Source: an uncultured Bacteroidales bacterium (GTDB taxonomy: Bacteria > Bacteroidota > Bacteroidia > Bacteroidales > ML635J-15). From it: DNA of 64,000 nt. The notes under the pieces were generated by a model. It was given only the letters and a program-made list of their open reading frames with translations, had not been told where the DNA came from and did no database searches. Every line of letters begins with the position of its first letter. Within the stretch, counting starts at the first letter, position 1. Position numbers and translations under genes: made by a program. Below are positions 731-62,622 of this stretch, piece by piece. The stretch spans positions 1 to 64,000 of the forward strand of contig CAJOIT010000012.1 of assembly GCA_905234755.1 (NCBI GenBank). The letters are read 5' to 3'.

Positions 731-2307
731 TGAACGAATTTGACAAGATATTTAAGCAGAAGCTGGAAGGCTACACCGAAACGCCACCACCAGAGGTGTT
801 TGAGAATATCAGCAAGCATTTCCCGAAGAGGACTGCTGCCGAATTTTTCTCGGCATATAAGTATCATCTCATTGCAGCTGTTGCGACAATAGGTATTGTA
901 GCAACTATTGCGATTGCATATTTGCCTTCAAATGAGGAAACTACCATTATTACTACTGACAATATACAACCCAAAGATATTACTTCTGATGCATCCGATA
1001 ATTTATCGGCACCTATGGCACTTACCGAATCCGAATCTCACAATCAAAATCCTACTGAACTTACTTTCGAATCAAAGAGTTCAGAACCTACACCTCAATC
1101 CGAAAATAAGGTTGATGCACTTAACTTAAATGACACAACAATATGTGGCAATGAGTTGTTGATACATGGAATTGACATTGCCAAAATAAAAGCATCAGAT
1201 GATTTGGTATTGACAAAGGTGGCATCAGGAGTTAAAATTAGCAGTAAGTCGTATGGTACTCATGCTCTGACATTAACTAATGGCAACAGTGTAAAGATTA
1301 CCTTTGTCGAATCTGAAAAACTTGTAGCATCGGTTGCCAAGACCGACCTGTGCTATGGAGAAAAACTTCTTGTAAACACTTTTGGAGCATCGTCTGTTAA
1401 ATGGAACGACAGTTACTATTCTGTTGCAAAGCTTAATGCAGGCAAGTACGAATTGTCGGGACTGAATACAGGCAAAAACAGCATTGTAATTACTACAGGT
1501 GAGGGCAGATGCGCATCGAATATAATGTTTGATGTGAATGTTGCCAGCAAGTTGAATTATATGGTAAGCACCAAGGCAAACTATTGTTCAGGCAAAAACG
1601 GTGAACTTACAGTAAAGTCTGACAGCAAAATAAATTACTGTAGGATTAATGGCTCGGATATTTCTCGAGACGGAATCTTTACTGGATTGGGTGCAGGCAT
1701 CTATATGGTTGAAATTAACTATGCAAATTCGTGCGTAGCATACGATACAGTGCTTGTGAAGGACAAGACCAACCTCAATGCTTTCTTCGAGAGTACGAAG
1801 GATGCATTCAACGAGAAAGGATACACTTTCCGCAACTATACTCGCCTAGACGATTCTGGAAATACGCAGAATGTTGATTTTGAGTGGTTGGTAAATAGTA
1901 TGGTTGTATCTACGGATTATAATTTTGAATATGAATTCACAGGTAATGGAAAGTATGAAGTGGAACTTGTAGCTCGTTTGGGAGATTGCGAGAGCAGATA
2001 TTCGGAAACGATTTCTGTGACATCGAGTGACTTTAGGATTCCGAATATATTTACACCAAATGGTGATGGAATAGGGGATGAGTTTACAATAAAGTACAAT
2101 GGAACCTTGCTTGACTATGACCTTTCGATATACACAAAGGCAGGGCAGTTGGTTTTCCACAGCCAGCAGATTGACGATTACTGGAATGGAAAGATAAGTG
2201 GTAACAATGATGCATCGGAAGGCGTATATTTCTATGTGATAACTGCTACTGGCGAAAACAACGAGAAACTAAGTCAGAAGGGTACTGTCCAGTTGATAAG
2301 ACGATAA
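730..2307 (+). CDS. Anti-sigma-like membrane protein with T9SS type B (CHU_C) C-terminal domain
   Basis: The ATG at 730 overlaps the sigma factor stop (TGATG); a GTG at 727 is the alternative start. Residues 1-40 (FDKIFKQKLEGYTETPPPEV) resemble the cytoplasmic tail of Bacteroidota anti-sigma factors. One transmembrane helix follows at about residues 43-65. A long extracytoplasmic part ends in a PKD-like segment and a gliding-motility-associated domain (RIPNIFTPNGDGIGDEFTI, ending KGTVQLIRR). Position and N-terminus suggest it regulates the upstream sigma factor. The C-terminal domain is normally a type IX secretion signal, which is hard to reconcile with a membrane anchor. Function is inferred. 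Confidence 0.75.
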   Translation: MNEFDKIFKQKLEGYTETPPPEVFENISKHFPKRTAAEFFSAYKYHLIAAVATIGIVATIAIAYLPSNEETTIITTDNIQPKDITSDASDNLSAPMALTESESHNQNPTELTFESKSSEPTPQSENKVDALNLNDTTICGNELLIHGIDIAKIKASDDLVLTKVASGVKISSKSYGTHALTLTNGNSVKITFVESEKLVASVAKTDLCYGEKLLVNTFGASSVKWNDSYYSVAKLNAGKYELSGLNTGKNSIVITTGEGRCASNIMFDVNVASKLNYMVSTKANYCSGKNGELTVKSDSKINYCRINGSDISRDGIFTGLGAGIYMVEINYANSCVAYDTVLVKDKTNLNAFFESTKDAFNEKGYTFRNYTRLDDSGNTQNVDFEWLVNSMVVSTDYNFEYEFTGNGKYEVELVARLGDCESRYSETISVTSSDFRIPNIFTPNGDGIGDEFTIKYNGTLLDYDLSIYTKAGQLVFHSQQIDDYWNGKISGNNDASEGVYFYVITATGENNEKLSQKGTVQLIRR

Positions 2308-2335
2308 ATTCCGTATTTAGGGAGTGGAGTATATG

Positions 2336-2364
2336 AAAAAGGCAACGCAAAAGCGCTGCCTTTT
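2336..2364. terminator. Bidirectional terminator
   Basis: AAAAAGGCA-CGC / GCG-TGCCTTTT folds into a hairpin with an AAAA loop and has A/T runs on both sides. It lies between convergent genes (rightward 730-2307 and leftward 2389-3687) and can serve both. Confidence 0.75.
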
Positions 2365-2388
2365 CTGTTTTTTGTGGAATACTATTGA

Positions 2389-3687
2389 TTATAAACTCCA
2401 GTATGTCAAATCCTTGATTTTTCCTCTCATCACGCCCTTAACATCAACAAGGATTCCGTTTTCAGCAGAAATACTCTTGAAGTAGTCTTCGGTAAGTTCC
2501 ATGTACGGCTTATGATTAACTGCCAATACAATGGCATCGTATTTACCAGTTGGTTCTTTCGACATGTCAACGCCATATTCCTTCATAACCTCGTCGTGGT
2601 CGGCGTATGCATCAACAACATCGCAGTTTACGCGGAAATATTTCAACTCGTTGATAATGTTGATTATGCGCGAATTTCTAATGTCGGTGACATTCTCCTT
2701 GAAGGTCATACCCATAATGAGAACTCTCGATTTTGTAATTTCCTTGCCAGCATTAATAATCATCTTTACAACCTTGTCGGCGATACGAGTTCCCATGCTG
2801 TCGTTGAGAGCACGACCAGAGTTTATCATGCTAGCGTGGTAGCCGAGCTGTTTTGCCTTGTGAAGCAGATAATACGGGTCAACGCCGATGCAGTGTCCGC
2901 CAACAAGTCCAGGTGAGAATTTCAGGAAGTTCCACTTTGTTCCAGCAGCTTCCAGTACCTCGTAGGTGTTGATTCCCATGATGTCGAATATGATTGACAA
3001 TTCGTTCATGAGTGCAATGTTGATGTCGCGCTGGGTATTTTCGATAATCTTTGCAGCCTCGGCAACTTTTATTGCGCTTGCGCGGTGTACGCCAGCCTTG
3101 ATAATTATTTCGTATACCTTAGCGATGTTTTCTGCAGCTTCGGGGTCACAGCCAGAGGTGATTTTCTTTATCTGAGTGAGCGAATGAGCCTTGTCGCCCG
3201 GGTTAATTCTTTCTGGAGAGAATCCGACCTTGAAATCCTGCATAAACTTCAATCCCGACATCTTTTCGAGAATCGGAACGCAGTCTTCTTCGGTACAACC
3301 AGGATATACTGTTGATTCGTATACTACATAGTCGCCTTTCTTCAAAGCCTTTCCAACCGATTCCGATGCCTTAATAACCGGTGTAAGGTCAGGAAGTTTA
3401 TGCTCGTCGATTGGTGTTGGTACAGCAACGATGAAGAAGTTGCACTGCTTGAGGTCATCGGCATTGGATGTGAATGTGATATTGCATCCATCGAATGCTG
3501 ATTTGTCAAGCTCGTTGCTAGGGTCGATGTGGTTGTTCATCATAGCAACTCTTTCGGGCTTAACATCGAAGCCAACGACATTTATATGTTTTGAAAATTC
3601 AAGAGCAATCGGCAGTCCTACATAACCCAGACCAATAACCGAAAGTTTTGCCTGTTTGTTGATTAATGCTTCGTAAATGTTATTCAT
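2389..3687 (-). CDS. tviB: Nucleotide-sugar dehydrogenase, TviB/WbpO type (UDP-HexNAc 6-dehydrogenase)
   Basis: This 432-aa protein oxidises C6 of a UDP-N-acetylhexosamine to the uronic acid, using two NAD+. The N-terminal Rossmann motif is VIGLGYVGLPIA. The family's NAD-domain signature (VVYESTVYPGCTEEDCVPIL) follows. The catalytic cysteine lies in GLVGGHCIGVDPYYL. Overall wording is closest to VipA/TviB and WbpO rather than to UDP-glucose dehydrogenases. It is the last gene of a leftward block with WlbA/WbpB-like and WlbB/WbpD-like enzymes, so UDP-GlcNAcA for the Wbp pathway is the likely product. Substrate choice (GlcNAc or GalNAc) cannot be read from sequence. Confidence 0.9.
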   Translation of the reverse strand: MNNIYEALINKQAKLSVIGLGYVGLPIALEFSKHINVVGFDVKPERVAMMNNHIDPSNELDKSAFDGCNITFTSNADDLKQCNFFIVAVPTPIDEHKLPDLTPVIKASESVGKALKKGDYVVYESTVYPGCTEEDCVPILEKMSGLKFMQDFKVGFSPERINPGDKAHSLTQIKKITSGCDPEAAENIAKVYEIIIKAGVHRASAIKVAEAAKIIENTQRDINIALMNELSIIFDIMGINTYEVLEAAGTKWNFLKFSPGLVGGHCIGVDPYYLLHKAKQLGYHASMINSGRALNDSMGTRIADKVVKMIINAGKEITKSRVLIMGMTFKENVTDIRNSRIINIINELKYFRVNCDVVDAYADHDEVMKEYGVDMSKEPTGKYDAIVLAVNHKPYMELTEDYFKSISAENGILVDVKGVMRGKIKDLTYWSL

Positions 3688-39604: not shown

Positions 39605-39662
39605 CTCATCAAAAGAAAGTTTTTTTTTGTTATAATAGAAATACATTCTATATTTGCACCAA

Positions 39663-39910
39663 GTTTAACGATTAAAAATTTTGATGCCTATGGAATAACG
39701 CGTACATTGATACGCACATTTTAGGATAATTTAGGAAAAAGCGGTTTTGCTTTTGTCTTCTACTCAAAAATTTGGCGATTTTTAGTACTATGAAGATATG
39801 GCAGACGGTTGCGCATTTAGCGTGATCTTTTGTTGTAATCTTGTATAGTACGGGTTCAGCCAAATACCTTGAGTAGCGGGATAGCAGAAAGACATCACGC
39901 TATTTTTTTT
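39663..39910 (+). ncRNA. Putative structured RNA A
   Basis: A -7 box TATATTTG lies at 39649-39656, and there is no ORF until 40008. The 3' end folds as TAGCGTGAT (39818-39826) with ATCACGCTA (39894-39902), followed directly by T8. Near the 5' end are a hairpin GCGTA-TACGC and the blocks TTAACGATTAAAAATT (39665) and TGGAATAACGC (39691), both also found in putative RNA B at 59993 and 60107. ATACGCAC (39710-39717) is complementary to GTGCGTAT (39911-39918) just after the T-run, which could allow alternative folding. No known family is recognised. Confidence 0.5.
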
Positions 39911-40007
39911 GTGCGTATTTTCCAAACGACCTTATAAGATGTCAAAAAAACGGAATTTGATGCCCGCCGGAAAAAGGGACACAACATTTAAATTAAATAA
40001 GTTTAAG

Positions 40008-40694
40008 ATGAAGAAGATATTATTCACTGTATTTGCAATGTTATTAATGGTTGTTTTTTGCAATGCACAGAGTTCTGAAATAGAAGATTACAAGGCTTTG
40101 ATAAAGGAACGCAAAGAAATGGCAAAATTAACTAGGGATTTAAGGAACGAAAAATCATCAAAAGATGCCAAAAAAGCTGCAAAAGAAATGGAAAAGGAAG
40201 GATGGAAACCTGCCCCAGGTAGCCTTCCTTTGGATAAGTTGAACGAAAAGGTATGGGAAATGCAGTATGAACTTGATCCACAGACAGGATTTCCAAAATA
40301 TATCATAGCAAGCGGATCTGGAGTCGCAGAAACATACGATGTGGCCAAAACGCATGCTATGGCGAGAGCGAAAACATCGCTTGCTGGTCAAATTGCAACA
40401 GAGTTGGCAGATATATTAGAGGATAAAGTCGCAAATAAGGCTATTTCAGAAAAGGATGCAACATCATTGGCAGAAATAGCTGAAGGCGGTGTACAGAAAA
40501 TCCAGCAAAAATTGGGGAGAATATTAACAATTATGGAAGTTTATAAAGACCATAAGAAAACCAAGGAAGTAAGAGTTACTATTTCATATAATTTTGAAAT
40601 GGCAAAAACTGCAGCAATGGATGCATTACGAGAAGATATGGAATCGCGTAGCGATGAATTAGTCGGTAAAGCTCGTGAGGCTTTAGGTCTTTAA
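40008..40694 (+). CDS. Secreted LPP20-like protein
   Basis: A 228-aa protein with a signal peptide (MKKILFTVFAMLLMVVFCNA). The mature part has a lysine-rich helical stretch (residues 35-65) and an LPP20-like core (ASGSGVAETYDVAKTHAMAR, AKTSLAGQIATELADI). The ATG at 40008 is used because the longer frame from 39909 runs back into the terminator of RNA A. It is the first of three envelope genes ending in a caspase-like protease. Confidence 0.75.
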   Translation: MKKILFTVFAMLLMVVFCNAQSSEIEDYKALIKERKEMAKLTRDLRNEKSSKDAKKAAKEMEKEGWKPAPGSLPLDKLNEKVWEMQYELDPQTGFPKYIIASGSGVAETYDVAKTHAMARAKTSLAGQIATELADILEDKVANKAISEKDATSLAEIAEGGVQKIQQKLGRILTIMEVYKDHKKTKEVRVTISYNFEMAKTAAMDALREDMESRSDELVGKAREALGL

Positions 40695-40714
40695 TAAAAA
40701 ACTATCTATAAACA

Positions 40715-41566
40715 ATGCGCATCTTTTCATTTCTTTTAGTAGTTGTTTTGGGAACTGCGACCTGTTTCGGGCAGAAAAGCGTAAGTGTCTGTGGTGAATA
40801 TAGGTACGTGGCTCCCGAAAACGTTTCTCGCGAACAAGCAAGGAATATTGCAATCGAGCGTGCCCGCAACAAGGCGATGGCAGATGAGTTTGGTACGATA
40901 ATTTCTGAGGTTAATACTTCAATAACAAAGAGTTCTGCAGATGGCTATAATGCGAAAGACGAAACTGTATTTAATACGTATGGTGGAACCGAAAGCAAGG
41001 GATTGTGGCTCAGCGATAATTCTGAACCCGAAATAAGCGAAACTTTTGAGAACGGATTTTTCGTAATAAACGTAAAAGTTTGTGGCAAGGCCAAAGAGTT
41101 TAAGTCTGCCGATTTAGAACTGAATGTTTCATCGCTGTGCAATGGCATTGAAAGTGACAGATTTCGTAGTAAGGACAGGTTTACCGTAAAGTTCAAGACA
41201 CCAGTAAAGGGATATTTGGCTATATTTCTGCTTGATGACAATGATGTCGCCAGTTGTCTGTTGCCTTACGAAAGCGGAGAGGCGGTTGAGGTTAATAACA
41301 AGGAAGAATATGTATTTCTGACCACTTCGGATCCTAATTATCCATGGGGAGAGGAAACCATTCTCGAAACAGAGAAAGAAGTTGAGTATTTCAGGATATA
41401 CTATATATTCTCCAAGAATAGTTTTACTATGCCAATGACTGAAAACGGAGAATATGTTCCTGAATTACAGAGAATAAAATTTGAAAAGTGGTTGTTGAAA
41501 AACAGAATACATGATGAAGACATGCAGGTAATACAGAGAGTTATAGAAGTTAGAAAAGGAAAATAA
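40715..41566 (+). CDS. Secreted DUF4384-like protein
   Basis: A 283-aa protein with a signal peptide (MRIFSFLLVVVLGTATCFG). It has an LPP20-type helix (SREQARNIAIERARNKAMAD) and a C-terminal DUF4384-like domain (DRFTVKFKTPVKGYLAIFLL, DDNDVASCLLPYESGE). DUF4384 commonly accompanies caspase-like peptidases. It lies 20 bp after the LPP20-like gene and 24 bp before the caspase gene. Confidence 0.75.
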   Translation: MRIFSFLLVVVLGTATCFGQKSVSVCGEYRYVAPENVSREQARNIAIERARNKAMADEFGTIISEVNTSITKSSADGYNAKDETVFNTYGGTESKGLWLSDNSEPEISETFENGFFVINVKVCGKAKEFKSADLELNVSSLCNGIESDRFRSKDRFTVKFKTPVKGYLAIFLLDDNDVASCLLPYESGEAVEVNNKEEYVFLTTSDPNYPWGEETILETEKEVEYFRIYYIFSKNSFTMPMTENGEYVPELQRIKFEKWLLKNRIHDEDMQVIQRVIEVRKGK

Positions 41567-41590
41567 GTGATAACAATTAAAATTACAAAA

Positions 41591-42868
41591 ATGGGAAAAA
41601 GATTTATAATTATAACGATTGCTTTGTTTTTAATCGCGATATGTGGCTTCGCACAGGGTGTAGCTACAATTTATATTAGTCGTCCGTTTAAGGGGGCAGG
41701 TTCTATTTCGAAACACAATATAGAAATAAACAACGTTCCCATTGGAGCTATTAGTTCTGGTGGTACTATGGCCATTACAATACCTGCTGGAGATGTTATC
41801 ATAAAGGATTACTACGGGGTAGTTGGCAATCCCGAAACCTTGTGGTCGGCAATTAGTGCAGAAGCTGGGAATGCTTATTATGTAAAAATAAATGAAACAG
41901 CAAAAAAAATGGTTTTAATAAACGATACCCCAGACAAATACAAAAATGCAGCATTATATGATTTTGCAACTTTGGAAAGATTATACAATAAGACACAAGG
42001 TGCAAATCAACAAGTGGCGCAAAACAACAAGCAACAGGTATCTGCACAAACCAGTACGCAACCAGTTACCAATAATAAGTCCCAAATTATTTCAGATGTT
42101 GACAAAAATATTCCACAAAGTAAGACCGTTGCTAATAATACCTATGTTTTGATTATTGCTAACGAGGAATATGAACAACTAGACAATGTAAATTTTGCAA
42201 TGCATGATGGAGAAACTTTCAGGGACTACTGCATAAAGACTTTAGGTGTTCCTGAAAAGCAGGTTAGGTTTTTCCCTAATGCTACGTATGGTAAAATAAC
42301 AAGTGGAGTTGACTGGTTAAAATATGCGCTTAACAATTTCAATGGCAGCAAAGGTATTGTGTATTATTGCGGACATGGTATTCCTGATGAAAAAACAGGT
42401 GAAGCATTTATAATTCCAGTTGATGGAAAGGGTACCAACACAACAACTTGTTATAGCCTAAATACTTTATACACAGTTCTTGCCGAAACAAAAGCAGAAA
42501 GCATAACATACTTTATGGATGCATGCTTTACAGGTGCAAACAAGGAAGGTAGTATGCTTATAGCAGCCCGTGGCGTAGCACGCGAACCTGCTAAATCTAC
42601 AGTCGGAGGAAATGCTATTGTATTCTCGGCATCAAGTGGCGATGAAACTGCAATGACATATCCAGAAAAAGGGCATGGACTATTCACTTACTTCCTACTA
42701 AAGAAACTACAAGAAACAAAAGGAAATGTTAGTTATTCGGAGCTCTCAAACTACATCAATTCGAATGTAAAGAAAGAAGCCTTCTTAATTAACGAAAAGC
42801 CACAGACACCTGTTGTTGCAACAAGTCCTGAAGCACAGGAAAGCTGGAAGGATATGAAGTTGAAATAG
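41591..42868 (+). CDS. Secreted caspase-family (C14) peptidase
   Basis: A 425-aa protein with a signal peptide (MGKRFIIITIALFLIAICGF). An N-terminal DUF2846-like beta domain covers residues 25-110. A Q/N/T-rich linker spans 135-180, and a caspase fold runs from 182 to the end. The catalytic dyad is His262 (IVYYCGHG) and Cys312 (TYFMDACFTGA). The start is the ATG at 41591; the GTG at 41567 is not compatible with a signal peptide. The target is unknown. A terminator follows at 42891. Confidence 0.88.
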   Translation: MGKRFIIITIALFLIAICGFAQGVATIYISRPFKGAGSISKHNIEINNVPIGAISSGGTMAITIPAGDVIIKDYYGVVGNPETLWSAISAEAGNAYYVKINETAKKMVLINDTPDKYKNAALYDFATLERLYNKTQGANQQVAQNNKQQVSAQTSTQPVTNNKSQIISDVDKNIPQSKTVANNTYVLIIANEEYEQLDNVNFAMHDGETFRDYCIKTLGVPEKQVRFFPNATYGKITSGVDWLKYALNNFNGSKGIVYYCGHGIPDEKTGEAFIIPVDGKGTNTTTCYSLNTLYTVLAETKAESITYFMDACFTGANKEGSMLIAARGVAREPAKSTVGGNAIVFSASSGDETAMTYPEKGHGLFTYFLLKKLQETKGNVSYSELSNYINSNVKKEAFLINEKPQTPVVATSPEAQESWKDMKLK

Positions 42869-42890
42869 TAATTTAATAGAAAAAACAAGA

Positions 42891-42928
42891 GCAGTATTCC
42901 CTATTGATCAGGGGAATACTGCTTTTTG
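42891..42928 (+). terminator. Rho-independent terminator
   Basis: GCAGTATTCCC / GGGAATACTGC, an 11-bp stem, followed by TTTTT. It ends the caspase operon. Confidence 0.9.
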
Positions 42929-42996
42929 TGTATATTATGTGTTTACCATTTTTACGGTTATTAGGCATAAGTTTCTTGGCAAATAGTAAAAAATAT

Positions 42997-43004
42997 TACT
43001 TTTG
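42997..43004 (+). promoter_or_regulatory. -7 promoter element of the dipeptidase gene
   Basis: TACTTTTG, 33 bp before the ATG at 43038. Confidence 0.5.
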
Positions 43005-43037
43005 CCACAATAAAATATTGCTCACAAACATTTTCTC

Positions 43038-44738
43038 ATGAAACGAACATTTCTCATTACCCTGATTATAGCCCTGTGCTTCGAGCCACTCCTCGCCTGC
43101 ACCAACCTTATTGTCGGCAAGAAAGCATCAACCGACGGCAGTGTGATGTGTACCTACAACTGCGATGGATTCGGATTCTCGGGTTCGCTGTTTTACAGCC
43201 CTGCCGGACTGCACGACAAGGACGAACTAATCGCCATTCACGGCTGGGGACCGTCGCACGAAGGACAATTTGTGAAGCAGGTGGAATATACCTACAATGT
43301 GGTGGGGCTGATGAACGAAAAGCAGGTCACCATAGTGGAAACCACTTTCGACGGACGCCTTGAGCTTGTCAACAAGGATGGACTGCTCGACTATTTCAGT
43401 CTTATGCGCTTGGCTCTGCAACGCTCATCGACAGCTCGCGAGGCTATCCGTTGCATGGCCGAACTGGTGGACGAATACGGATACAACAGCAGCGGCGAGA
43501 CAATTACCGTCTGCGACCCCAACGAGGCGTGGATTATGGAGATAATTGGCAAGGGCAAAGGCCGCAAGGGTGCTGTGTGGGTGGCTCTGCGAATCCCCGA
43601 CGACTGCATCTGCGCACACGCTAACCTCAGCCGTATCAGGCAGTTCCCACTGGAACAGAAAAAGTCGTACAAGAGCATCAGCAGCAAGAACTTGCAGAAT
43701 ATAAACCGTCCCGAAGTGGAATGCGTTTACGCCTACGATGTAATCTCGCTGGCGCGCGAACTTGGCTTTTTCAGTGGCAACGATGCCGACTTTTCGTTCC
43801 GCGATGCTTATTGTCCTATCGACTTCGAGAATGTGCGCTATGCCGATGCCCGCGTGTGGAGCTTCTTCCGTCACCACTACAGCAAGGACGAAATGGACAA
43901 GTACTTGCCATATATCAATGGCGATTTCGACAAGTGCGACCATCTTCCGCTGTGGATAAAACCCGATGCTCCGCTTTCGCTTCGCGACTTACAAAACGAC
44001 ATGCGCGACCATTTTGAGGGCACTCCGCTCGATATGACCGCCGACATGACCGCTGGTCCGTGGGGAATGCCTATCCGTCCGCTGCCTATGCACTTCAAGG
44101 ACAAGGACAGCATAGCCTATTTCCGCGAGCGTCCGATTGCCACCCAGCAGTCGGGTTTCACAATGACCTGTCAGATGCGCTCGTGGTTGCCCGATGATGT
44201 GGGCGGTGTAACCTGGTTCAACTGCGACGATGCCAATATGGTTGCGTATGTGCCTCTGTATTGCTGTATTACGCAAGTGCCTGATGCTTTCCGTCAGGAG
44301 AACAATCCGCGAAACGAGTTTTCGTTCGAGTCGGCATTCTGGATGAACAACTGGGTGGCAAATATGGTGTATCCGCGCTATTCGATGATGGTTGGCGACT
44401 TGCGCACCGCACAGAAGGAACTAGAGGACTACTACTTTGCCGACCAGGACAGCGTGTTGCTTGCCCTAAAGGGTATGCAGCCAGCCGACCGTCGCAGTTA
44501 CCTCAACCGCAAAAGCATCGAATACACCGACCTAATGATGCAACGCTGGGATAAGTTAGCCAAGTATCTGATTGTTAAGTACAACGACCAGATTATCCGT
44601 CGCACCGACGAGAATGGCAACTTCCTGCGCTGGGGCTACGACACTCCTGGATACGACCAGCAGTTCATCGATGCCATTGGCACTTCGACTGGCGACAGGT
44701 ACAAGTTGGAGAAGGTGATTGAAAGGAGAGAGAGGTAG
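43038..44738 (+). CDS. C69 family dipeptidase
   Basis: A 566-aa Ntn-hydrolase-type peptidase. The signal peptide (MKRTFLITLIIALCFEPLLA) is followed directly by Cys21 (CTNLIVGKKASTDGSVMCTY), the catalytic nucleophile freed by processing. Other landmarks are WIMEIIGKGKGRKGAVWVAL and the C-terminal WGMPIRPLPMHF. It probably digests dipeptides in the periplasm. Remnants of the 3' end of the same gene occur at 53455-53541 and 55660-55690. Confidence 0.92.
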   Translation: MKRTFLITLIIALCFEPLLACTNLIVGKKASTDGSVMCTYNCDGFGFSGSLFYSPAGLHDKDELIAIHGWGPSHEGQFVKQVEYTYNVVGLMNEKQVTIVETTFDGRLELVNKDGLLDYFSLMRLALQRSSTAREAIRCMAELVDEYGYNSSGETITVCDPNEAWIMEIIGKGKGRKGAVWVALRIPDDCICAHANLSRIRQFPLEQKKSYKSISSKNLQNINRPEVECVYAYDVISLARELGFFSGNDADFSFRDAYCPIDFENVRYADARVWSFFRHHYSKDEMDKYLPYINGDFDKCDHLPLWIKPDAPLSLRDLQNDMRDHFEGTPLDMTADMTAGPWGMPIRPLPMHFKDKDSIAYFRERPIATQQSGFTMTCQMRSWLPDDVGGVTWFNCDDANMVAYVPLYCCITQVPDAFRQENNPRNEFSFESAFWMNNWVANMVYPRYSMMVGDLRTAQKELEDYYFADQDSVLLALKGMQPADRRSYLNRKSIEYTDLMMQRWDKLAKYLIVKYNDQIIRRTDENGNFLRWGYDTPGYDQQFIDAIGTSTGDRYKLEKVIERRER

Positions 44739-59664: not shown

Positions 59665-59804
59665 ATCGCAAAGATAAGACAAAGTTCCAAAAATTCCGAT
59701 TAAAAACTGAAAATCGTGTAAAATTGGAACAAGCCCCACGGCTCTTTCATTTGGACTATTTTATTGTCTATTATACAAATTGTTAGCATTGAACAAATCC
59801 GCTG

Positions 59805-59910
59805 GCTGAGCTTCGCCCCTTGAGCGTCAGTCGAAAGGAAGAAGCCGAGGTACTCGGTGCTTTTCGTTACATTCACATCGCCCCTTCGACTACGCTCAGG
59901 GAGCGAATGG
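59805..59910. repeat. Inverted-repeat REP-like element
   Basis: GAGCTTCGCCCCTTGAGCGT (from 59808) is roughly the reverse complement of CCCTTCGACTACGCTCAGGG AGCGAA (from 59883). The TTCGACTACGCTCAGGG string is a common dispersed repeat in this phylum. Confidence 0.6.
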
Positions 59911-59981
59911 GTACAGAATTTAGTTTAAACAAGCTCAGAAAAAAATCAATAATTAAGGAATAATTCGTATTTTTGCACATG

Positions 59982-60260
59982 TAAAATGTTTATTAACGAT
60001 TTAAAATTATAGGTAAAAATAGAAGGATAAATTATTAAATAACCAAAGCATTAGCTATTATTCTTGTCCGAATCAAAAGCCTGCAAACTGATGATTCAGA
60101 AGTCGTTGGAATAACGCTAATCCACGGGAAAGTTTGTTTTTCCGTTTACTTGCATAAGGTTAATGCTCGCACCGAATATGGTGTGGGCTAATCTAGCAAG
60201 TAAACGGGGTTCTTGCAGGCTCCTCGTGGACAGGATGGAAAGGCTCGCACCTTTCTTTTT
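59982..60260 (+). ncRNA. Putative structured RNA B
   Basis: A -7 box TATTTTTG is at 59968-59975. Stems: TCCACG/CGTGGA (60121 / 60225), CGTTTACTTGC/GCAAGTAAACG (60143-60153 / 60196-60206) and GCTCGCACC/GGTGTGGGC (60165-60173 / 60180-60188). GCCTGCAA (60079) pairs with TTGCAGGC (60213) across the first stem, a pseudoknot. A terminator GAAAGG-CTCGCA-CCTTTC plus T5 ends at 60260. It shares TTAACGATTnAAAATT and TGGAATAACGC with RNA A. The methyltransferase frame could be extended through it but most likely starts downstream. Confidence 0.55.
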
Positions 60261-60312
60261 AGCCAAACTGATGATGAAGATTGATAGTGATGCGAAAAAC
60301 TATCAATCGAAT

Positions 60313-61449
60313 ATGGCAAACGAGAATCTGTCGAAGGCAAAAATCGCCAAAAATGATGAATTTTACACCCAATATGCTGACATTCAAAAGGAAATAAATG
60401 CATATCTGGAATACAATCCCGATGTGTTTAGAGGAAAAACTATTCTGTTGCCTTGCGACGACCCCGAATGGAGCAACTTTACAAAGTTTTTTGCACAGAA
60501 TTTCGAGAATTTTGGCTTGAAAAAACTTATTTCCACATCGTATGCAGTCGAAAGCAAACAAATTAAGCAATGGCAACCTACACTTTTCGAAACCGAAAAT
60601 CCCAACTACGATGCCGACAAAAGCCGCACTAACGGAAAAATCTTCATTCTCGACCACGATACCAACCAGAACGGCAAAATCGACATCGAAGATTTGGAAT
60701 GGCAATACCTTAATGGTGATGGTGATTTTCGTTCCGATGAAGTGAAAAAACTTCGTGACGAAGCCGATATTATCATAACAAACCCACCTTTCTCGCTGTT
60801 TAGGGAATTTTTAGCTTGGATAGTTGAAGCTAAGAAACAATTCGTAATTATTGGAAATCAAAATGCCATTACATATAAAGAAGTTTTTCCTTTGATAAAG
60901 GATAATAAAATTTGGTTAGGCAAAGGATTTACTGGTGGGGCAGGACATTTTATTAGTAATTATACTGATTATGCAACAGCAGGAGACCATAAAGAAGGAA
61001 TGATTAGAGTTTCGGGAGTTGTTTGGTTTACCAATCTTGAACACGGTCGCCGACACCAGCCACTTTCGCTAATGACAATGGAAGACAACATAAAATTCAG
61101 CAAGCACAAGGAAGTGAAAGGCGTCGGTTATCAGAAATATGATAATTATGATGCGATTGAAGTACCTTTTACCGATGCTATTCCAAGCGATTATGATGGT
61201 ATAATGGGCGTACCTATTTCGTTTTTGGATAAATATTGTCCGGAACAGTTTGAGATTTTGGGAATGTGCGAAAATGAAGATTTATACAAATTGAAAACAA
61301 AAAAATACTCATCAGAAGAATGTAAAAATGCGTATTGGTCAAAATTCAATAAAAAAGGGATATATGATCTCAATGCGAGCGGCGTTATTATAGTAGATAA
61401 TCTATATGAAAAAGTTTATCAACGCATTTTAATTCGCAAAAAACAATAA
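60313..61449 (+). CDS. EcoRI-type adenine-specific DNA methyltransferase
   Basis: A 378-aa protein similar to M.EcoRI-family enzymes, which methylate adenine N6. It has NDEFYTQYADIQKEI near residues 14-28, a motif I-like segment (TILLPCDDPEWSNF), motif IV NPPF at about 157-160 (IIITNPPFSLFREFLAW) and FVIIGNQNAITYKEVFPLI. The ATG at 60313 fits family N-termini. The frame opens at 60163, but that part overlaps the terminator of RNA B. The next gene, 12 bp downstream, may encode its nuclease partner. Confidence 0.86.
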   Translation: MANENLSKAKIAKNDEFYTQYADIQKEINAYLEYNPDVFRGKTILLPCDDPEWSNFTKFFAQNFENFGLKKLISTSYAVESKQIKQWQPTLFETENPNYDADKSRTNGKIFILDHDTNQNGKIDIEDLEWQYLNGDGDFRSDEVKKLRDEADIIITNPPFSLFREFLAWIVEAKKQFVIIGNQNAITYKEVFPLIKDNKIWLGKGFTGGAGHFISNYTDYATAGDHKEGMIRVSGVVWFTNLEHGRRHQPLSLMTMEDNIKFSKHKEVKGVGYQKYDNYDAIEVPFTDAIPSDYDGIMGVPISFLDKYCPEQFEILGMCENEDLYKLKTKKYSSEECKNAYWSKFNKKGIYDLNASGVIIVDNLYEKVYQRILIRKKQ

Positions 61450-61461
61450 AACAATCACATT

Positions 61462-62622
61462 ATGCAAACAACATTAAAACAATACACTGTTCGTGAAATC
61501 TGCGAAGGATTTGTGTATAACGAATTTGAAGGCAAAGGTCTGTTTGGCCTTTCGGGAAAGTTGACCATTCAGCCGGAATATCAACGCAACTACATTTATG
61601 CGGATGGCAAACGCGATGTGGCCGTGATAGAATCAATGCTAAAAGGTTATCCGCTGGGTTTGATATATTTCAACAAGGTTTCGGATGAAAAATTGGAAGT
61701 TCTTGATGGTCAACAGCGTATAACAAGTTTTGGTCGTTATGTTACGGGTAAATTTGCAATAAAGGATGCAAATGGTATGGAGCAATATTTTTCTGGTCTT
61801 GCCGAAAATTTGCAACAGAAAATTCTTGATACGCAGATACTTGTTTACGAGTGTGAAGGCGAGGAAAGTGAAATAAAGGAATGGTTCAAGACCATAAATA
61901 TTGCCGGCATTCCGCTAAACGAACAGGAATTGCTAAATGCTGTGTATTCGGGACCGTTTGTCACAAAGGCAAAAGAGGAATTTTCGAACACGCAGAATGC
62001 CAATGTGCAAAAGTGGAGCGCGTATGTTTCGGGAAATGTAAATCGTCAGGATTTCTTGCATACTGCTCTTGAATGGGTTAGCAAAGGCAAAATTGGAGAA
62101 TATATGAGCTCGCATCGCCAAGACAATAACATCAACGAGCTGAAAACATATTTTAATACTGTAATTGACTGGATTTCAGGAGTCTTTAATGATGTTGAAA
62201 GTGAAATGCGCGGTCTGGAATGGGGACGTTTGTACGAAACATATCATAAGAATTCATACAATCCAGCTGCGATTTCTGCTCGTGTACATGAATTATATGC
62301 CGATCCGTATGTAAAAAGCAGAAAAGGTATTTTTGAATATCTTTTAGGTGGCGAAATTGATAAAAAATTGCTTGATGTCCGTGTTTTTGATGAAGCTACC
62401 AAAAAAGCCGTCTATGCAAGACAAACGCAAGAAGCCAATGCCGAAAATAAATCAAATTGTCCGCTTTGTGCATTAGGAAGCGACAATAACAAACTAAGAA
62501 TCTGGAAGCTTGCCGAAATGGATGCCGACCACGTAACAGCATGGAGCAATGGCGGTGCAACAGACATAAATAATTGTCAGATGCTTTGCAAGACACATAA
62601 TAGGGCGAAGGGAAACAAATAA
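61462..62622 (+). CDS. DUF262 protein with C-terminal HNH nuclease domain
   Basis: A 386-aa protein. The N-terminal DUF262/ParB-like domain (residues 8-150) shows [30 protein letters not shown] and [17 protein letters not shown], the DGQQR motif being typical. A helical middle follows. The C-terminal HNH domain has CPLC, then [20 protein letters not shown] and [13 protein letters not shown]. Such proteins include GmrSD-type modification-dependent nucleases. The 12-bp gap to the methyltransferase suggests one operon, with this as the restriction partner; inferred, not shown. Confidence 0.85.

Follow-up and report, generated by a model that had tools for sequence, protein, structure and literature searches.

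RNA A and RNA B, two structured elements in a 64,000-nt stretch of an uncultured Bacteroidales genome (the whole stretch is here referred to as the window), are members of a large and previously uncatalogued RNA family, and we propose that they are probably cis-acting leaders of the attenuator type, in which a terminator and an antiterminator compete for one strand. Comparative sequence analyses support that the two RNAs are structured and related to each other, that they hold a fixed position in front of accessory genes (the cargo), and that this cargo is exchanged beside them. The coordinates of the relevant features are listed in Table 1.

Table 1. Features of the RNA A and RNA B loci in the window
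Feature	Position(s)	Strand	Basis or remark
RNA A promoter, −7 element TATATTTG	39649-39656	+	Sequence; fits TAnnTTTG
RNA A	39663-39910	+	Extent per original prediction
Block TTAACGATTAAAAATT	39665-39680		In RNA A
Mini-ORF ATGGAATAA (Met-Glu-stop; ATG GAA TAA)	39690-39698	+	RNA A leader
Block TGGAATAACGC	39691-39701 (RNA A) and 60107-60117 (RNA B)		Exact in both
RNA A leader hairpin	39700-39715 (feature 39700-39718)	+	Sequence
RNA A core	39735-39911	+	Extent of covariance model R2
RNA A 5′ hairpin	39737-39754	+	
RNA A P1	39756-39767/39869-39881	+	96.6% paired
RNA A P2	39771-39778/39857-39864	+	98.0% paired
RNA A variable hairpin	39784-39852	+	
RNA A tail AAAGACATCACGC	39888-39900	+	Complementary to GCGTGATCTTT at 39820-39830
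RNA A T8 run	39903-39910	+	
RNA A cargo, whole cluster	40008-44738	+	
RNA A cargo: secreted protein	40008-40694	+	ORF
RNA A cargo: 283-aa protein	40715-41566	+	ORF
RNA A cargo: caspase-domain protein	41567-42868	+	PF00656
RNA A cargo: C69 peptidase	43038-44738	+	PF03577
RNA B promoter, Bacteroidota −7 element TATTTTTG	59968-59975	+	Sequence; fits TAnnTTTG
RNA B	59982-60260	+	Extent per original prediction
Block TTAACGATTTAAAATT	59993-60008		In RNA B
RNA B core	60030-60263	+	Extent of covariance model R1; R1 matches and covariation
RNA B 5′ hairpin, near-invariant AAAGCATTAGC	60045-60055	+	Conservation
RNA B P1 (9 bp)	60062-60070/60227-60235	+	9/9 pairs with double compensatory changes; 97.9% paired
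RNA B P2 (8 bp), AGCCTGCA/TGCAGGCT	60078-60085/60214-60221	+	8/8 double compensatory changes; 98.9% paired
RNA B P3 pseudoknot	60121-60128 with CCTCGTGG 60222-60229	+	87% paired; 19 double-change cells
RNA B variable long hairpin	60142-60207	+	5′ apical arm, 60165-60173; 3′ apical arm, 60180-60188
RNA B long-hairpin stems	60143-60153/60196-60206 (11 bp); 60165-60173/60180-60188 (9 bp)		
RNA B 3′ tail GCTCGCACC	60243-60251	+	T-rich run after it, to 60260
Hairpin GATTGATAG...CTATCAATC before RNA B cargo start codon	60279-60308	+	
RNA B cargo 1: EcoRI-type adenine DNA methyltransferase	60313-61449	+	PF13651, E 8e-124
RNA B cargo 2: type II restriction endonuclease, GmrSD_N (DUF262) + HNH	61462-62622	+	PF03235, PF01844; PADLOC REase_II

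In agreement with the original prediction, the structure of both RNAs is far beyond chance, because their folds compared to 200 dinucleotide shuffles gave z scores of −5.3 (RNA B) and −3.9 (RNA A) and because their homologues carry compensatory changes. For RNA B, covariation was counted on a combined alignment of 98 matches, in which 96.5% of the pair cells were formed, 44 of the 49 pairs had a double compensatory change, 0 of 500 shuffles reached the observed values, and sliding the partners by 1 to 3 columns lowered pairing to 31 to 51%; for both RNAs, the alignments were fitted to the models, kinship among the sequences inflates the shuffle-based controls, and the genomes are metagenome drafts. 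P1 and P2 of RNA B are nested, and P3 is a pseudoknotted stem with a level of pairing that exceeds shuffles as well as slid controls. The predicted stems of 11, 9, ~6, and 8 bp are all present, with the roles of two of them interchanged: the 8-bp stem, described as a pseudoknot, is the nested P2, while the 6-bp stem (60122-60127/60224-60229, ~6 bp) is P3 and is pseudoknotted. The 9-bp P1 had been missed. GCTCGCACC occurs exactly twice in the RNA B of the window, as the 5′ apical arm of the long hairpin and as the tail, and the tail is complementary to the 3′ apical arm. The alignment for RNA A (A4) comprises 112 rows, including 18 antisense matches. RNAalifold's own consensus for RNA A, in which the 5′ hairpin is paired to the 3′ tail, was not retained, and the 5′ hairpin, P1, and P2 were recounted separately; jointly, they had a covariation score of 0.716 versus 0.189 in shuffled alignments. 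The covariance-model search proposed as a check of the original prediction recovered homologues with compensatory changes for B as well as A.

In an Rfam 15 covariance-model scan of the window, no family was found at or above the gathering cutoff, nothing meaningful was detected at the RNA A and RNA B loci at E values up to 10, and at 20 other member loci no Rfam match overlapped the RNA. The families covered included 6S, tmRNA, HEARO, T-box, and SAM riboswitches. ARAGORN identified 0 tRNA or tmRNA genes in the window. These results agree with the earlier statement that no known RNA family was recognized, and neither RNA matched 6S RNA or tmRNA. In the literature that we searched, we found no description of the family.

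A DNA search within the genus identified 11 further B copies in 8 other genomes, of which 1 was marginal. R1, the covariance model for B, was built from ten sequences and gave 37 B matches in 22 of 393 Bacteroidales genomes with at most 5 copies per genome; moreover, a short exact pattern retrieved 80 named B loci, nearly all from gut metagenome assemblies of Bacteroidales and most of them confirmed by R1. R2, the model for A, gave ~155 matches in 75 of the 393 genomes, including a few antisense matches that are explained by the near-palindromic long hairpin. The genus contains homologues of A, among them a paralogue in the genome from which the window comes. This genome has five A copies and one B copy, six in all, whereas two had been noticed originally; the order-wide copy number is in the hundreds. 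Beyond the order, where 395 genomes of the phylum were searched for each family, A had a single match and B a single marginal one. Phage and plasmid records gave no real match to the RNAs, and among 80 viral contigs with the short motif, only two matches were below E 0.001, and the length of just one of these was convincing. We note that a contig from a viral collection (L313; IMGVR_UViG_2820795054_000002, positions 2210-2390, minus strand) has a significant R1 match (E 4e-6); this contig is possibly a prophage edge or misassigned.

Each of the window RNAs is matched weakly by the model of the other family. Elsewhere, R2 recovers the B-model match of L111 at an identical position (E 4e-7), R1 does the same for the A member L167 (E 3e-6), weaker R1 matches with the correct place and strand were found in L154, L047, L164, and L149, and A-like copies are present at two methylase loci (L486 and L478). 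A and B also have a common plan that consists of a 5′ hairpin, P1, P2, a variable long hairpin, a tail complementary to the 3′ strand of this hairpin, and a U-run. Based on these bridging cross-matches and the shared architecture, the sequence data support that A and B form one superfamily. The relatedness of the two RNAs had been predicted, and the covariance models bear it out on grounds other than the short blocks originally offered as proof, which are mostly coincidental. Specifically, the 11-nt and 15-nt blocks, although exact in RNA A and RNA B, were rejected as main proof of relatedness because they are not conserved in homologues; TGGAATAACGC lacks conservation among the RNA B homologues, and its copy in RNA A is part of the start-stop mini-ORF. 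Upstream of the methylase at L484, a T-run following repeats is in neither model's reach and resembles an additional, diverged representative of the superfamily.

As predicted, both RNAs precede accessory modules, i.e., a caspase cluster in the case of A and a methyltransferase/HNH pair in the case of B. The B methylase ORF is readable from 60163, overlapping RNA B, while the starts of homologues place its true start at ~60313. EcoRI-type methylases are the first cargo of B in 50 of 82 cases; the other cargos include further methylases (N6_N4, N6, D12, and MmeI-type), type I-like and type III enzymes, a Tsp45I restriction endonuclease, helicase-HNH proteins, glycosyltransferases, sulfatases, an acyltransferase, an SPFH protein, and, in L090, a GDSL lipase. 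Among the cargos of A are proteins with a T9SS tail, BspA-type LRR proteins, caspases, BACON proteins, and some methylases. Using a simple heuristic, a signal-like N terminus was identified in 57 of 85 first cargos of A versus 8 of 83 of B. Thus, B fronts mostly restriction-modification (R-M) systems and A mostly secreted or surface proteins, and the cargo families point to no common pathway. In the window's own genome, the A copies G000:C3:897342 and C9:145538 front a type III-like methylase and a BspA-LRR T9SS protein, respectively, and G000:C5:92898 and C1:509224 front a purple-acid-phosphatase-like protein and a 420-aa protein, respectively.

The position of the RNAs relative to the cargo is constrained. 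A same-strand ORF lies within 300 nt of 89/89 B copies and 89/94 A copies, with quartiles for the distance to the start codon of 38/40/45 nt and 48/59/81 nt, respectively. In 77 of 89 B copies, compared to 5% of shuffled controls, a hairpin of at least 9 bp precedes the start codon, mostly with a gap of 0 to 4 nt to the ATG. Upstream, the Bacteroidota promoter predicted for each RNA is supported by a −7 element (Table 1). TAnnTTTG was found 40 to 170 nt upstream of 44/84 B copies versus 6/84 in the reversed-sequence control and before 56/94 A copies versus 10/94 in the control; hence, the motif precedes about half of the copies at five to seven times the control frequency. The region from the AlkZ-like gene to RNA B (59740-59930) is rich in inverted repeats (GAGCGTCAGTCGAAAGG/TTCGACTACGCTCAGG), and several sister loci are without them. 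The motif with the start codon of the mini-ORF in the RNA A leader, GCCTATG or a close form (CTTATG), recurs in 26 of 94 A leaders and is followed by a stop within six codons in 26/26, which is unlikely by chance given that the chance for a single ORF is estimated at ~40% from base composition, although the sequences are related. Also, ATACGCACA at 39710-39718 is complementary to TGTGCGTAT at 39910-39918 beyond the T-run, and related A leaders have the same complementarity.

Both RNAs finish in a T-rich run, as originally described; it is the accompanying idea that the RNA clearly ends there that did not hold, since past the T-run conserved sequence goes on up to the start codon of the cargo in both cases. 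A five-T run near the 3′ end is present in 54/89 B copies versus 85/94 A copies, and a standard terminator scan detected no terminator in B; both observations speak against the attenuator reading. Alternatively, A and B could be free-standing, trans-acting small RNAs of ~180 to 280 nt with their own promoter and terminator, in which case the cargo would be expressed by leak-through or from its own promoter. The enrichment of promoter motifs, the U-run that follows a terminator-like tail helix in 85 of the 94 A copies, and a local hairpin that RNAalifold places at the B tail before the T-run (GGAAAGG...CCTTTC) are consistent with this alternative. However, a free RNA would need neither the constant 38 to 45 nt to the B cargo ATG and the conserved hairpin ending there nor, in A, the sequence past the U-run that is complementary to the leader, and at the fabG locus described below the stretch from the upstream terminator to the RNA shows no −7 motif. 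We therefore consider trans-acting small RNAs unlikely; a 5′ leader extending into the mRNA of the cargo is a more likely picture than the two free-standing transcripts of 250 and 280 nt that had been predicted.

The cis-acting leader reading is further based on two competing pairings. In both families, the 3′ strand of the long hairpin is complementary to its own 5′ strand as well as to the tail before the U-run. As judged by duplex energy, replacing a sequence's tail with that of another weakens the pairing in 90/93 A and 80/88 B copies. For B, 96.7% of the cells between tail and 3′ arm are paired, with double changes in 8/9 pairs; the tail helix of A is less conserved, with 80.4% paired and two of five measures not clearly above shuffles. 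Mean energies in A are close (hairpin, −18.7 kcal/mol; tail duplex, −21.8 kcal/mol), and in the RNA A of the window the tail duplex is at −25.4 versus −17.1 kcal/mol for the hairpin. In B, the balance usually favors the long hairpin (−29.1 kcal/mol) over the tail duplex (−23.0 kcal/mol), and for this reason tail pairing in B may need kinetics or an additional factor. The modeled energies leave it unsettled which form would win. Read from the alignments, the two conserved pairings exclude each other and one of them has a U-run behind it, as is characteristic of attenuators, with the tail helix being weaker in A.

With regard to transcription, switching, and signal, we infer the following scenario. 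Transcription would start at the leader's own promoter or reach it by read-through and would then extend into the mRNA of the accessory genes. The RNA would fold into a core, comprising the 5′ hairpin, P1, and P2 and in B also the P3 pseudoknot, alongside the long variable hairpin. The 3′ strand of this hairpin would have two possible partners, its own 5′ strand and the 3′ tail. Tail pairing would generate a terminator-like helix before the U-run, while with the hairpin formed the tail would stay unpaired and RNA polymerase could read into the cargo; in B, the hairpin at the cargo start codon would add translational control. In this way, the leader would be a cargo-independent attenuator for phage-defense and surface genes that remains in place while the cargo is swapped.

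Evidence for such swapping comes from the locus of fabG, a gene for an SDR-family reductase named by eye from its sequence. Six species (G000, G007, G009, G019, G020, and G022) have the upstream region and RNA A in common; in four of them, 5 kb with 91 to 96% identity stops at the 3′ end of the RNA, and in all six compared pairwise, homology stops at −2 to +13 nt from this end with unrelated cargo beyond. The RNA and cargo are absent from this locus in the relatives G021, G023, and G011, and in G000 they are in place of a short stretch just past the fabG terminator. The L144 region of this locus (query 236-314) has a short interspersed repeat with the units GTTGCGAGCAACG and ATTGACAATT, which occurs dozens of times in the genus and adjoins the RNA insertion site. 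At a second locus in two species (L219/L235), ~3.5 kb with 94.7% identity plus the RNA are shared, homology stops 18 nt past the RNA, inside the start-codon hairpin, and the cargo past the junction is a type I-like N6 methylase in one case versus an N6_N4 methylase in the other. In L435/L460, homology continues for ~155 nt, through the signal peptide. The exchange junction as read from these alignments is thus near the RNA and not at one fixed base. For the window B locus, no clean empty site was found in sister species, which have other genes between the same neighbors.

Junctions at the RNA 3′ end with different cargo in six species, the one 18 nt past the RNA in L219/L235, and the three relatives missing both RNA and cargo at the fabG locus would also fit the possibility that a mobile cassette system uses the RNA, or its DNA fold, as a functional component, with a dedicated recombination or retro-mobility mechanism that inserts or swaps the cargo at the 3′ end of the RNA. 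We find this quite improbable: the junction is not fixed and lies ~155 nt further downstream in L435/L460, a repeat of the RNA end was not seen by eye at the far end of the cargo at the fabG locus, there is no reverse transcriptase or recombinase among the adjacent-cargo Pfam matches listed, and ordinary homologous recombination in the shared 5′ module would account for the exchange. Because the junction is not fixed, recombination in this module fits better than a site-specific enzyme.

The methyltransferase/DUF262-HNH pair directly behind RNA B, and the methylases behind most B copies, could indicate that the RNA is a guide or cofactor of these R-M enzymes, i.e., RNA-directed restriction. 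We identified the EcoRI-type methylase in 31 of 267 genomes and scanned 30 methylase loci with R1 and R2; the RNA was found before twelve, and in the remaining roughly 18 of the 30 the upstream sequence is different or too short. Methylases without the RNA argue against an RNA-guided enzyme, as does the presence of the same RNA before unrelated enzymes (MmeI-type, type I-like, and type III enzymes, glycosyltransferases, and sulfatases), making RNA-directed restriction highly improbable. At L475, L476, and L481, which have an EcoRI-type methylase and no RNA, a small HTH-like ORF read by eye is directly upstream, an arrangement known from R-M systems with a controller protein. Based on this analysis, the RNA may take the place of a controller protein at R-M loci.

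If the cis-acting leader reading is true, one RNA superfamily would control a large share of the exchangeable defense and surface genes of gut Bacteroidales, and the safe expression of newly acquired R-M systems without a controller protein would be explained. One switch with many cargos would also provide a handle on the timing of defense and surface variation and would constitute a class of leaders set apart by its exchangeable cargo, not by a pathway. A rather doubtful extension of this idea is that the RNA functions as a "socket," in which one RNA switch at defined chromosomal places would turn on any of the exchangeable defense and surface genes upon a common signal, possibly a disturbance of translation sensed via the start-stop mini-ORF, as in phage infection.

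Among known systems, HEARO/omega-RNAs and the RNAs of retrons and diversity-generating retroelements (DGRs) are similar to A and B in being structured RNAs beside variable genes; they differ in that no IscB, TnpB, or reverse transcriptase is among the cargo families listed here. The Rfam scans gave no HEARO match, no reverse transcriptase family indicative of a retron, DGR, or group II intron is among the first-cargo matches listed, and the cargos are unrelated rather than constantly of one nuclease family as in the omega-RNA type. From the same phylum as A and B, Weinberg et al. (2010; PMC2864571) described structured RNA motifs including Bacteroidales-1, Bacteroides-1, Bacteroides-2, and Flavo-1; the motifs that are in Rfam had no match here, and Bacteroides-2 appears without an Rfam number in the table of that paper. 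Like controller (C) proteins, the A/B RNA sits immediately ahead of R-M genes, which it would regulate; however, C systems are proteins, and at the A/B loci an RNA holds that place. Leader-peptide attenuators are resembled by the 26 of 94 A leaders, including that of window A, with a start and a stop within 6 codons before the hairpin, while the ORF has only 1 to 6 codons, shows no repetition of regulatory codons, and was found in neither B nor most of the A leaders. The closest likeness is to attenuator-type riboswitches and leader RNAs, with which A and B share the 5′ leader position, a large conserved core, invariant unpaired stretches, two conserved mutually exclusive pairings, a tail followed by a U-run, and the proposed read-through into the mRNA. 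Unlike in known attenuators, the terminator-like helix of A/B is a pseudoknot across P1/P2, and there is no matching Rfam model; and whereas known riboswitches keep to one pathway, the A/B leader goes with unrelated cargo.
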